A DNA stretch of 44,182 nt from assembly GCA_025928935.1 (NCBI GenBank), contig JAICNB010000022.1, positions 1 through 44,182 on the forward strand. The letters are read 5' to 3'. The notes beneath the pieces are model-generated. The model was not told the origin of the DNA. It did not search any database and saw nothing but the letters and a program-made list of their open reading frames with translations. The stretch comes from Acidimicrobiia bacterium (GTDB taxonomy: Bacteria; Actinomycetota; Acidimicrobiia; Spongiisociales; ZC4RG35). Made by a program: the position numbers and the translations under genes. This document shows, piece by piece, positions 4,510-8,786 of the stretch. The stretch's first letter is position 1. Every line of letters begins with the position of its first letter.

Positions 4510-6522
4510 TCAGGTTCGGGCCACCTCGCGAATCAAGTAGGCCTCGATGTTGTCGCCTTCCTTGACGTCGTTGTAGCCCTCGAGCCCGATACCGCACTCG
4601 AACCCGGCCGCGACCTCTCGTACGTCGTCTTTGAACCTCTTCAGCGACGAGATGGTGCCATCGTGGATGACCACGCCGTCGCGGATGAGACGGGCCTTGG
4701 CGCCACGCTGCACCACACCTTCGATCACGTAACACCCGGCAACGGTGCCGATGCGTGGCACTTTGAAGGTGGCCCTCACCTCGGCGGTGCCCAGGACCTG
4801 CTCCTGCTCCTCGGGGGCGAGCTGGCCCACCAACAGCTGCTCGATGTCGTCGAGCAGCTCATAGATGATCCCATAGGTCCGGATCTCGACGCCTGCCTCC
4901 TCGGCTGCTTTGCGCGCCTTGGGCTCAGGGCGGACGTTGAACCCGACGATGACCGATTCGGTGACCTCGGCCAGCGTGACGTCGTTCTCGTTGATGCCCC
5001 CCACCGCCCCGTGCAGCACCTGGATCTTCCCGCCTTCACGCTCGATCTTCGATATCGAGTCGCGCAAGGCCTCGAGGGAGCCGTGGGCGTCGGCCTTCAC
5101 GATGACGTTGAGGGTGGCGTCTTCGCTTCGCAGTTGCTCGAGAAGGCCCTGGAGACGGTCACGGGCCGACGGCATGGCCTGGCTGACCGCCTTCAGCTCT
5201 TCCTCGCGCTCGGTTGCAATGCGACGCGCCTCCCGGTCGCTCTCCACGACGCTGAAGAAGTCACCGGCGGTGGGCACCTCGTCCCAGCCCATGATCTGGA
5301 CCGGCATGGATGGGCCGGCCTCCTTGACCTGCTGGCCCTTCTCGTCCATCAGGGCACGGGCACGACCCGAGGTGGCGCCGGCGACGAAAGGGTCACCGGT
5401 GTGCAGGGTCCCGCGCTGGACGATGACCGAGGCTATGGCGCCCTTCCCCCGCTCCAGCTGTGACTCGACGACGACGCCGGAGGCCTCTGCCTTCGGATTC
5501 GCCTTGTACTCCTCGAGCTGGGCGATCAGGTCGACGACCTCGAGCAGGTCGTCGACTCCCTGGCCGTTGAGGGCTGAGATCTCGACACTCGGCACGTCGC
5601 CACCCAGTTCCTCGGTGATGACCCCGTGCTCGGTCAGTTCGGTTCGCACCCGGAGCGGATCCGCACCGGGGAGATCCACCTTGTTCACCGCCACGATCAT
5701 CTTGACGTCCGCGGCCTTGGCATGGGAGATGGCCTCGACCGTCTGAGGCATGACGCCGTCGTTGGCCGCCACGACCAGGATCACGATGTCGGTGATGTTC
5801 GCCCCCCGAGCGCGCAACGAGGTGAAGGCCTCGTGACCCGGGGTGTCGATGAACGTGACGGGGTGGCCGTTCACGTCGACCTGATAGGCGCCGATGTGCT
5901 GGGTGATCCCGCCCTGCTCGCCCTCTACCACGCTGGTCTTGCGGATCGTGTCGAGGAGAGTGGTCTTGCCGTGGTCGACATGGCCCATCACGGTCACCAC
6001 CGGTGGGCGTGGGGACAACTCGGAATCGTCGTCCTCGAAGACAGGCCGCTCGGCCACGGCCGGTGGAGGAGGTGAGGCCTCGACATCGACAATGAAACCA
6101 AACGCCTCGGCCACCTCATCGATCAGCTCGGGCGGCATGGTCTGTCCCGCTCCGACTGGCTGGCCCATGGTGAGGAGCCGACTTACGACATCCTTGGCAG
6201 GCACCCCCAGGGCCTCGGCAAAGACGGTCACGCTGGCTCCGTGTGGGACCGAGACGATGTCGAGCTCTGGCTCGGGCTCGGTCTCCGCGACCTGCTCGGC
6301 CTCGGGCTCCGCCTCGACGATGGTGTCCGCGGTCCCGGGCTCCGGCTCGGTGGTTTCGACCACTTCCGGCTCGTCGCCGGCAACCGCCAAACGGAGCAAC
6401 TCAGCCGACTCGTCGTCGAGCCCGGAGGAAGCCGTCTTCACTTCGATGCCCAGGTCCTGGGCCTGCTGGAGCAGAACCTTCGAATCCACCGCCAGGTCCC
6501 TGGCCAGCTCGTAAACCCTCAC
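4510..6522 (-). CDS. infB: translation initiation factor IF-2
   Basis: IF-2 is the GTPase that places formyl-methionyl-tRNA on the 30S subunit and promotes subunit joining. The protein has 670 residues, short compared with many actinobacterial IF-2 proteins because the low-complexity N-terminal linker is reduced to an acidic stretch (about 50-90). The first residues [18 protein letters not shown] form the IF2 N-terminal helical domain. The G domain shows GHVDHGKTT (G1), [18 protein letters not shown] (G3), NKVD (G4) and SALNGQG (G5). Domains II to IV follow, ending in [19 protein letters not shown]. The gene begins 12 bases after the nusA stop with no ylxR gene between them. Confidence 0.97.
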
Positions 6523-6534
6523 GTCCGAATCCCT

Positions 6535-7713
6535 CTATTCGCTCTCGTCGTCCCCGCCGGCGGCGGGCACTGCATCCTCTTCGTCGTTCTCACCTTCCGG
6601 GGCCACCGTCTCGCTCTCGACTGATACGTCTTCGACCGCCTCTGCAGCAGGGGTGGCACCGGCCTCCTCCGGCGCGGTCTCGTCGGTGGGGAGTTCATCG
6701 GCGGCCGGAGCATCGGCAGCCGGGGGAGGTTCGACCTCGACACCCTCCATATCCGAGCGGATGTCGACCTTGTACCCGGATAGCCGCGCCGCCAGCCGGG
6801 CGTTCTGGCCTTCCTTCCCGATGGCCAACGAGAGCTGGTGCTCGGAGACGACCACGTCGGCGGTCTTGGTCTCCTCGTCGATATGGACTTCCTTGACCTT
6901 GGCCGGGCCCAATGCCTCGGCGATGAACTGCCCGATGTCGTCCCGCCACTGGACGACATCGACCTTCTCGCCGCGAAGCTCGTTGACGACCTGACGGACC
7001 CGTGATCCCCTGGCCCCTACACAGGCGCCCTTGGGATCCACGTTGGGGTCGTGGGAGATGACTGCGATCTTGGTCCGGTGGCCCGGCTCGCGGGCGATGT
7101 TGACGATCTCGACAGTGCCGTCGGTCAACTCGGGCACCTCGAGCTCGAGGAGGCGGCGAACCAGGTCGGGATGGCTCCTGGAGACCACGATCTGGGCCCC
7201 CTTCGCCTCGTTGCGGACCTCCAGGATCAGGGCCTTCACCCGGTTGCCCCGCTCGAGCCGCTCGAATGGGATTCGCTCGGACCCGGGGAGGATGGCCTCG
7301 GCGTCACCCAGGTCGAGGATGACCGACCGGTAGTCCACCTGCTGAACCAATCCTGTGACCAGGTCGCCTTCGCGCCCTTCGTACATCTCGAACACGTGCT
7401 CGCGCTTGGCCTCACGCAGCTTGTGCTGCATGACCTGCTTGAAGGACTGGGCGGCGATGCGGCCGAAAGCCTCCCCCTCCGGCGTGTCCTCCCACTCCGA
7501 GACGACATTGCCGTCCTCGTCCAACTCCTGTGCGTACACGATCACCTCACCCGAGTCCGGGTCGATGGTTACCCGCGCCTCCTCGGCTGCCCCTGGGCTG
7601 CGCTTGTAAGCCGCAACCAGAGCGTTGGCGAACGCATCGAGGATGGTGTCGACAGCCACGCCGCGCTCTCGGGCGAGTACCTCGATTGCCTCCATCATGG
7701 TGTCGAGCTTCAT
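6535..7713 (-). CDS. nusA: transcription termination/antitermination factor NusA
   Basis: NusA binds RNA polymerase and modulates pausing, intrinsic termination and antitermination. The 392-residue protein has the N-terminal polymerase-binding domain (1-130, with ALVAAYKRSPGA), the S1 domain starting at GDLVTGLVQQVDYRSV, and the tandem KH domains. KH1 contains DPKGACVGARGSRVRQVV and KH2 contains LAIGKEGQNARLAARLSGY. A C-terminal tail of about 55 acidic and alanine-rich residues replaces the repeats seen in E. coli. It is the second gene of the rimP-nusA-infB unit, and the leader hairpin upstream of rimP is a plausible control point. Confidence 0.96.
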   Translation of the reverse strand: MKLDTMMEAIEVLARERGVAVDTILDAFANALVAAYKRSPGAAEEARVTIDPDSGEVIVYAQELDEDGNVVSEWEDTPEGEAFGRIAAQSFKQVMQHKLREAKREHVFEMYEGREGDLVTGLVQQVDYRSVILDLGDAEAILPGSERIPFERLERGNRVKALILEVRNEAKGAQIVVSRSHPDLVRRLLELEVPELTDGTVEIVNIAREPGHRTKIAVISHDPNVDPKGACVGARGSRVRQVVNELRGEKVDVVQWRDDIGQFIAEALGPAKVKEVHIDEETKTADVVVSEHQLSLAIGKEGQNARLAARLSGYKVDIRSDMEGVEVEPPPAADAPAADELPTDETAPEEAGATPAAEAVEDVSVESETVAPEGENDEEDAVPAAGGDDESE

Positions 7714-7722
7714 GGTTCTCCT

Positions 7723-8196
7723 TCAGTGACCTGGCTTGGGGGCTTTCTCCCACCTGAACACGGTCCTGGCGGCGAGCACGTCTGCGTAATCGACGACCTG
7801 GCGATCGCCCTCGGCCTCTACTGTGAACCCGTCCTCGCCGGCTTCGGCAATGACCCCTCGAATGGTCGTCTTGTGGTCGCCGTCCGCGGTCTTGACGACG
7901 ACCTCGCGGCCGATCGACTTGGCGTACTGGGAGGGCCGACGGAGGTTTCTCTCCAGGCCGGGCGAGGTGACCTCGAGACGGTAGGAGCTGTCCAGGTCGG
8001 TCTCGTTGTCGAGGAGGCGAGACACGCCGCGGGAGACATCGGCGAGACGGTCGATGTCCACTCCCTCACCGTCGACCACGACGCGCAACAACGTCCCCGG
8101 CCCGCGGCCGAGCAGTTCGACATCGTCGAGTTCCAGCCGCTCGGCGGCGAGATAGGGCTCCACCACCGTCCAGATGTCCGAGACCGTCGTCGTCAT
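7723..8196 (-). CDS. rimP: ribosome maturation factor RimP
   Basis: RimP is needed for early assembly of the 30S subunit and interacts with ribosomal protein S12 in studied bacteria. I start it at ATG 8196 (MTTTVSDIWTVVEPYL), 157 residues, because AGGAGCAGGGAA lies just upstream and an in-frame upstream start would run into the leader hairpin. Family features include LRVVVDGEGVDIDRLADVS, the stretch SRLLDNE, and SYRLEVTSPGLERNLRRP near residue 80, the most conserved RimP motif. It heads the nusA-infB operon. Confidence 0.93.
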   Translation of the reverse strand: MTTTVSDIWTVVEPYLAAERLELDDVELLGRGPGTLLRVVVDGEGVDIDRLADVSRGVSRLLDNETDLDSSYRLEVTSPGLERNLRRPSQYAKSIGREVVVKTADGDHKTTIRGVIAEAGEDGFTVEAEGDRQVVDYADVLAARTVFRWEKAPKPGH

Positions 8197-8244
8197 TTCC
8201 CTGCTCCTGGCTTCGACATTCGTCACCCGGTGAGCCCGGGCGAC

Positions 8245-8279
8245 AAAAAAACAGGCGGGTGCCAAAAGGCGCCCACCTG
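8245..8279 (-). terminator. intrinsic terminator hairpin in the rimP leader
   Basis: On the minus strand, a 12-position stem (8279-8268 pairing with 8263-8252) has ten Watson-Crick pairs, one U-G pair and one C-A mismatch. A UUUU loop closes it, and it is followed directly by seven U (8251-8245). This is a textbook intrinsic terminator. It lies between a good -10 element (8312-8307) and the rimP start (8196), so besides ending transcripts from the DinB-like gene it would also act on transcripts starting at the rimP promoter. Confidence 0.8.
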
Positions 8280-8306
8280 GTTCAAAGCGTCCTTGTTGTC
8301 GGCCTA

Positions 8307-8312
8307 AGTATA
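8307..8312 (-). promoter_or_regulatory. candidate -10 element of the rimP-nusA-infB promoter
   Basis: The minus strand reads TATACT at 8312-8307, five of six matches to TATAAT, in an otherwise GC-rich gap between the DinB-like stop (8364) and rimP. No convincing -35 hexamer is visible 16-18 bases upstream. Predicted initiation near 8300 would give a leader of about 100 bases that contains the terminator hairpin at 8279-8245. Confidence 0.5.
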
Positions 8313-8363: not shown

Positions 8364-8786
8364 TCAGGACTCACGCAGCGCCTGCACGTAAACGATCAAT
8401 TGCCCCGTGTGGTACCACTCGTGGGCGGCGATGTTCCTCAGAATCTCGCTGCGAGGACAGGCTTCCAGGCGGAGCGCTTCCCACCACTTCTCAGGGCTCG
8501 AGACCAGTTCCTCCAGGCCTTCCTCATCGAACGAGTCGATATAGCGCAGGGTCTGGTGGCGTAAGCCGTCGAAAACAGAGCGCATTTCGGCGAGCGTCGC
8601 CGTCTCCTCGAACGAGTCGGGATCGTCGTCGGGCCACTCGCCCGTCTGCAGCCAGGCGATCAGCTCCCTCTCCTTGTTGGCCATCTCGACGAGGAGACCG
8701 GCTACGGATGGCATGTCGTCCCATGGCCGGCGGGGCAAGTCCGCGTCGGTCAGCTTGTCGAGCACCTCATCGAGGTCTTGTCGCAC
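8364..8786 (-). CDS. DinB-like four-helix protein
   Basis: This resembles the DinB/DUF664 superfamily of small four-helix proteins, many of which bind a metal through scattered histidines and serve as thiol transferases or unknown enzymes. The histidine-rich segment NIAAHEWYHTGQLIVY near the C-terminus fits the third metal ligand helix, and KERELIAWLQTGEWPDDD lies in the middle. The listed start is GTG 8786 (140 residues). The same frame continues upstream to a stop with plausible protein text (DYLKARLQYVRQ) but no ATG, GTG or TTG, so the true N-terminus may be about a dozen residues longer with a rare start. It is an isolated gene between proS and rimP, and its function is unknown. Confidence 0.7.
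   Translation of the reverse strand: MRQDLDEVLDKLTDADLPRRPWDDMPSVAGLLVEMANKERELIAWLQTGEWPDDDPDSFEETATLAEMRSVFDGLRHQTLRYIDSFDEEGLEELVSSPEKWWEALRLEACPRSEILRNIAAHEWYHTGQLIVYVQALRES

Follow-up and report, generated by a model that had tools for sequence, protein, structure and literature searches.

A conserved promoter-proximal hairpin that probably lets NusA limit its own production from the rimP-nusA-infB operon of Acidimicrobiia

NusA acts generally in transcriptional pausing and termination, and its gene lies in an operon that, in the Acidimicrobiia bacterium considered here, appears to be preceded by a strong intrinsic terminator. What is such a terminator doing between a promoter and the first gene of rimP-nusA-infB? 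The locus was studied within a 44,182-nucleotide stretch of DNA (the window) from an assembly of 3.08 Mb in 144 contigs, in which no 16S rRNA gene was found. The original prediction had described a TATACT element, a 12-position hairpin, seven U residues and only then rimP; on re-reading of the sequence this description and its coordinates hold. Comparison with relatives indicates that the conserved hairpin just past the promoter probably stops most transcripts early, letting NusA limit its own production.

Anatomy of the leader and its operon

All features described in this section are on the minus strand. The -10 element of the operon promoter, TATACT (8307–8312), was assigned by its position and is conserved in relatives. 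No TTGACA-like -35 element is visible at the right distance from it, so that a promoter called from this single sequence is weak evidence; support comes from conservation. The position of the -10 element predicts a transcription start near 8300. Between this predicted start and the hairpin lies a GGACGC box (8287–8292), recognised through the recurrence of GGACG in leaders of the order. The terminator hairpin (8252–8279), defined by sequence, fold and an alignment of 52 leaders, has a GTGGG/CCC core resembling that of the rimP-leader (see below). Its stem-loop reads CAGGTGGGCGCC-TTTT-GGCACCCGCCTG, with 11 of 12 positions paired and a single C·A mismatch, and it is directly followed by seven T residues (8245–8251) that form the U tract of the terminator. 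The first stem base is 27 nt from TATACT, and the GTGGG motif 30 nt. Together, -10 element and T tract predict a terminated leader RNA of about 54–56 nt (8245–8300).

The segment 8305–8245 has a folding energy of −24.0 kcal/mol, and comparison with 200 shuffles puts its z score at −2.56. Our own scan of both strands of the 44 kb window returned two terminator-like sites, of which 8279–8245 alone combines 12 positions with seven T; shuffled versions of the window contain on average 0.57 sites of any such kind (30 shuffles). A stock consensus scan called neither a promoter nor a terminator at the leader, because there is no good -35 element and because its limits on contiguous stems and loops exclude this hairpin. 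An inverted repeat around the -10 element (GTCGGCCTA/TAGGCCGAC) was dropped as a candidate, since by eye it is missing from a congener (L004).

Downstream, the T tract (8245) is separated by 48 nt from the rimP start codon (ATG at 8196), a distance inside the 4–130 nt that define the rimP-leader, and a Shine-Dalgarno-like AGGAG is found at 8204–8208. Immediately 3' of the T tract, a second strong hairpin, GTCGCCCGG-GCTCA-CCGGGTGAC (8222–8244), was read by eye and from the fold. Its GTCGCCC...GGGCGAC-like form is visible in the window and in the same congener, that is, in this genus only; an influence on folding of the leader or on the access of ribosomes is conceivable.

The operon itself comprises rimP (7723–8196; 157 aa; Pfam RimP_N with 59.7 bits, RimP C-terminal SH3 with 38 bits), nusA (6535–7713; 392 aa; Pfam NusA_N and KH domains) and infB (4510–6522; 670 aa; Pfam IF-2, IF2_N and GTP_EFTU). 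rimP and nusA run in the same direction, 9 nt apart, and from gene order they are predicted to share a transcript. Upstream of the leader, and outside the conserved unit, lies a DinB-family gene (8364–8786; Pfam DinB_2, 41.7 bits) on the same strand, whose stop codon is 85 nt upstream of the hairpin.

Conservation within the order

Sixty genomes of the order were sampled. RimP was found in 59 of these, including that of the window; one (L059) was excluded for lack of upstream sequence, giving 58 loci, and a further 12 genomes raised the number of rimP upstream regions to 70. The hairpin occurs in 52 of the 58 loci, and in 64 of the 70. Its occurrence upstream of rimP in relatives had been put forward as a check on the original prediction, which is thus supported. 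The 52 hairpin-bearing leaders of the first set were aligned, leaving out the six loci that lack the hairpin. GTGGG in the 5' arm is invariant in all 52, and CCC is nearly so. In a helix of eight pairs, 98.8% of cells are paired, with compensatory changes in three pairs of the lower stem, and sliding the 3' partner by one to three columns lowers pairing to 41–64%. An outer stem, ACAAC/GTTGT, is visible by eye in part of one family (f1).

The promoter is conserved along with the hairpin. A -10 element with at least five of six matches is present in 60 of the 64 hairpin-bearing relatives, in 59 of them at 24–41 nt before GTGGG; a control window 85 nt further upstream has none (0/61). A conserved -10 element at such a narrow distance indicates that the promoter is inherited together, as a unit, with a terminator some 20 nt past the start. 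Together with the frequency of the hairpin, this supports the reading of the site as an attenuator leader. The U tract is more variable: 56 of the 64 have at least five T among the eight positions that follow the stem core, and the other eight have two to four (overall range 2–7).

A covariance model built from the leaders of the order gives the site 54.7 bits, and the next match in the genome 17.7 bits; with a single strong match, the core motif is absent from the genome's other terminators. In a search across the class, the model reaches E 0.01 in 46 of 50 genomes of the order. The exception to conservation is genus g10, in which the hairpin is missing from all six genomes with upstream sequence (L026, L027, L030, L032, L034 and L054). 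Since rimP, the operon's first gene, is kept there, the hairpin is dispensable in this genus.

Distribution beyond the order and the link to nusA

Elsewhere in the class, 48 genomes were chosen from other orders for family spread, out of 181 with RimP. For the rest of the phylum, 69 loci were taken, 29 of them best RimP matches and 40 picked for family spread, out of 129 genomes with a RimP match, a number that includes class members. A GTGGG...CCC[AG]C core precedes rimP in 42 of the 48 and in 43 of the 69, one locus with just 24 nt of upstream sequence (L215) being scored as a miss. Under a stricter rule, 60 loci match in the order, 41 in the rest of the class and 42 in the rest of the phylum, with shuffle means of 0.5, 0.35 and 0.25, and far-upstream control sequence gives 1, 0 and 0 matches, respectively. 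A reverse-complement control (28, 35 and 28 matches) was discarded as invalid, because GTGGG..CCCAC nearly equals its own reverse complement.

Among the class-level misses, five (L154, L162, L171, L178 and L193) show a near variant by eye, and only L186 shows nothing. Many of the 26 phylum-level misses are large-genome actinomycetes. A check of 26 missing cases, from 25 distinct genomes, showed nusA following rimP; the hairpin has thus been lost or replaced, rather than the operon being different. Another family, f47, is also among the phylum-level misses: in seven of its loci (L225, L232–L235, L240 and L242), a hairpin of inverse sense, GCCCC...GGGGC, stands before rimP; it recalls the gammaproteobacterial CCCg...cGGG hairpin in the rimP-leader account of Naville and Gautheret (PMC2965389).

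Genomes in which rimP is missing reveal which gene the hairpin accompanies. Twenty actinobacterial genomes in which Pfam detects no RimP yielded 18 NusA loci. In ten of these (L282, L283, L284, L285, L287, L289, L290, L291, L293 and L294), the hairpin stands directly before nusA, 58–252 nt ahead of the NusA domain and with no intervening open reading frame of at least 80 aa. In two (L280 and L295), it precedes an open reading frame with weak RimP similarity; three have no hairpin, and a further three have none within the 0–193 nt of upstream sequence available. The same arrangement, hairpin directly before nusA, is found in Chloroflexi- or Dehalococcoidia-titled records (L138 and L141–L143), in Bacterium HR23 (L145) and in a Verrucomicrobium-titled record (L139); RimP_N was not found in these six genomes. 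One rimP-less record, L146, has no hairpin, and the converse, rimP standing away from nusA, turned up in no genome. A hairpin that keeps its place ahead of nusA in the absence of rimP goes with nusA: in the genomes compared, it tracks nusA rather than rimP.

These observations bear on which factor might set readthrough. The GTGGG stem could be bound by another product of the operon, such as RimP or IF2, or by a factor from elsewhere, with NusA a mere helper. RimP was also considered by Naville and Gautheret in their account of the rimP-leader (PMC2965389), and the invariance of GTGGG in 52 of 52 leaders while the U tract varies does suggest sequence-specific recognition. The hairpin stays before nusA, however, in lineages without detectable RimP, and we regard a controlling factor other than NusA as improbable.

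Slightly less probable still is that the hairpin plays no role for rimP-nusA-infB and is merely the 3' terminator of the upstream gene, which is DinB in this genome and proS in most relatives. It lies 85 nt past a DinB stop codon on the same strand, and proS is co-directional and directly upstream of rimP in many relatives; the hairpin may in addition block readthrough from whatever gene lies upstream. Against an exclusive role of this kind, a conserved -10 element intervenes, at a narrow distance, between upstream gene and hairpin, and the stem is conserved in sequence and unique in the genome. Furthermore, the upstream gene varies while the hairpin persists. This genome alone has DinB inserted between proS and rimP, and a tblastn search for a DinB homologue upstream of rimP in other relatives gave no match, leaving the window's own locus as the sole case. 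Restriction of the hairpin to positions behind DinB-like genes, named at the outset as the outcome that would speak against an attenuator, is therefore not what is seen, given its presence in 64 of 70 loci. Among the nusA-first records, open reading frames further upstream were catalogued in L138, L139, L141 and L145; three of these four (L138, L139 and L145) have a divergent gene there.

A classical attenuator with an antiterminator or a leader peptide is very improbable, as the possible pairing of the GGACGC box with GCGCC of the 5' arm, with a bulged A (both present in 44 of 64 leaders), is equalled in strength by 200 of 200 shuffles and by 180 of 200 swapped arms, and the approximately 20 nt before the hairpin are too few for a leader peptide. 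Overall, pairing of the upstream leader with the 5' arm is no stronger than that of shuffled leaders or swapped arms. NusA attenuation in Bacillus subtilis reportedly does not rely on antiterminators, and the lack of a competing structure agrees with attenuation of that kind, in B. subtilis as in the rimP-leader.

Known leaders and the proposed circuit

The element as such is already known. The rimP-leader was described in 2010 by Naville and Gautheret, whose account covers element, position, core and a NusA hypothesis, NusA being named as the best regulator candidate (PMC2965389). Shared features are an intrinsic terminator just 5' of rimP-nusA-infB, a GGGc...gCCC stem followed by a T stretch and, in the general form, the absence of both a larger conserved structure and an antiterminator (PMC2965389). 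The site agrees with this general form throughout: hairpin and T stretch lie in the 5' UTR of rimP-nusA-infB, GGGc...gCCC is conserved, the distance to rimP falls within 4–130 nt, no antiterminator is found, and the motif is unique. Unlike GGGc...gCCC, the first pair above GGG/CCC is C·A in the window; it is C-G in several relatives. In E. coli MG1655, CTGGGCTTTAGGCCC followed by seven T is found about 45 nt before rimP.

The additions made here are the nusA-first lineages and the GGACG box. The rimP-leader account names Firmicutes and Gammaproteobacteria and is not known to treat Acidimicrobiia or to describe nusA-first lineages (PMC2965389). A further difference from the element as described there is the GGACG box that, in this order, stands ahead of the hairpin. 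Of the order's 64 leaders, 49 have GGACG in the 32 nt that precede GTGGG; in a control window the number is 4 of 64, and among leaders from other orders of the class it is 0 of 42.

The Rfam family RF01770 (rimP) has the same gene position and function class as the window's leader. A search of the window region with its model, whose gathering score is 47 bits, returned nothing even with the limit set at E 10, and the model exceeds its cut-off in 0 of 41 relatives and in 1 of 14 control genomes; with just one control passing, RF01770 covers a narrow variant. Matches to ar35 and L20_leader with weak E-values merely re-find the hairpin and were set aside; no family is over threshold. A literature search on NusA autoregulation and on rimP/nusA in Actinobacteria, with most subscription journals outside its range, returned no title treating this leader in this clade.

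Two precedents come from other bacteria. In B. subtilis, a NusA-stimulated terminator in the 5' leader has been shown experimentally to exert feedback on nusA (Mondal et al. 2016, as summarised in the review PMC12288461); the same circuit is proposed here from comparison. The B. subtilis leader is given as about 180 nt (PMC2965389), compared with about 20 nt before the hairpin here. For rimP-nusA of Streptococcus agalactiae, from another phylum, RNA-seq is reported to detect a short RNA as well as a long transcript, both beginning at a single start, and termination 31 nt past it at an intrinsic terminator, and NusA feedback was proposed (PMC4448216); the window's leader is known from its sequence.

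Probably, though with room for doubt, the site is an attenuator leader of rimP-nusA-infB that terminates most rounds of transcription and mediates negative feedback by NusA without an antiterminator. Polymerase would start near 8300 and make about 20 nt before meeting the strong hairpin and U tract. Most rounds would end at the U tract and release a leader RNA some 55 nt long; by the anatomy of the leader, the choice would be only between stopping and readthrough within about 55 nt of the start. Polymerase-bound NusA would stimulate hairpin-dependent pausing and termination, so that more NusA would mean less readthrough into its own operon, with termination efficiency itself as the set point. 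The start site, termination in vivo and the sign and agent of control belong to this proposed part; the role of NusA, which we infer, gains support from hairpins directly before nusA in the absence of rimP and from the precedents in B. subtilis and S. agalactiae.

Several observations count against this feedback reading: the loss of the hairpin in genus g10, the many phylum-level misses, the poor U tract of some leaders, the three hairpin-less nusA loci among rimP-less genomes, and the strictness of GTGGG. For termination that NusA stimulates in the generic way, the sequence of the stem is not critical. The invariant GTGGG, the variable U tract, the GGACG box and the loss of the hairpin in one genus point to an unrecognised reader of the sequence. 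A more speculative proposal, which we advance tentatively and would not yet favour, is that GTGGG...CCCAC is an ancient cis-element of nusA across several phyla, more than a generic terminator, that is read sequence-specifically by NusA or the NusA-polymerase complex and has been kept despite poor U tracts and after loss of rimP. In this order, the GGACG box might then be an added RNA or DNA signal that tunes escape from the promoter-proximal terminator.

A terminator that heads the operon of nusA itself would make the level of this general termination factor self-limiting, and the present case would extend the NusA circuit to the Acidimicrobiia and to much of the Actinobacteriota. The invariant stem raises the question of what reads it, and, by comparison, the nusA-first lineages argue for NusA rather than RimP as the product that matters.
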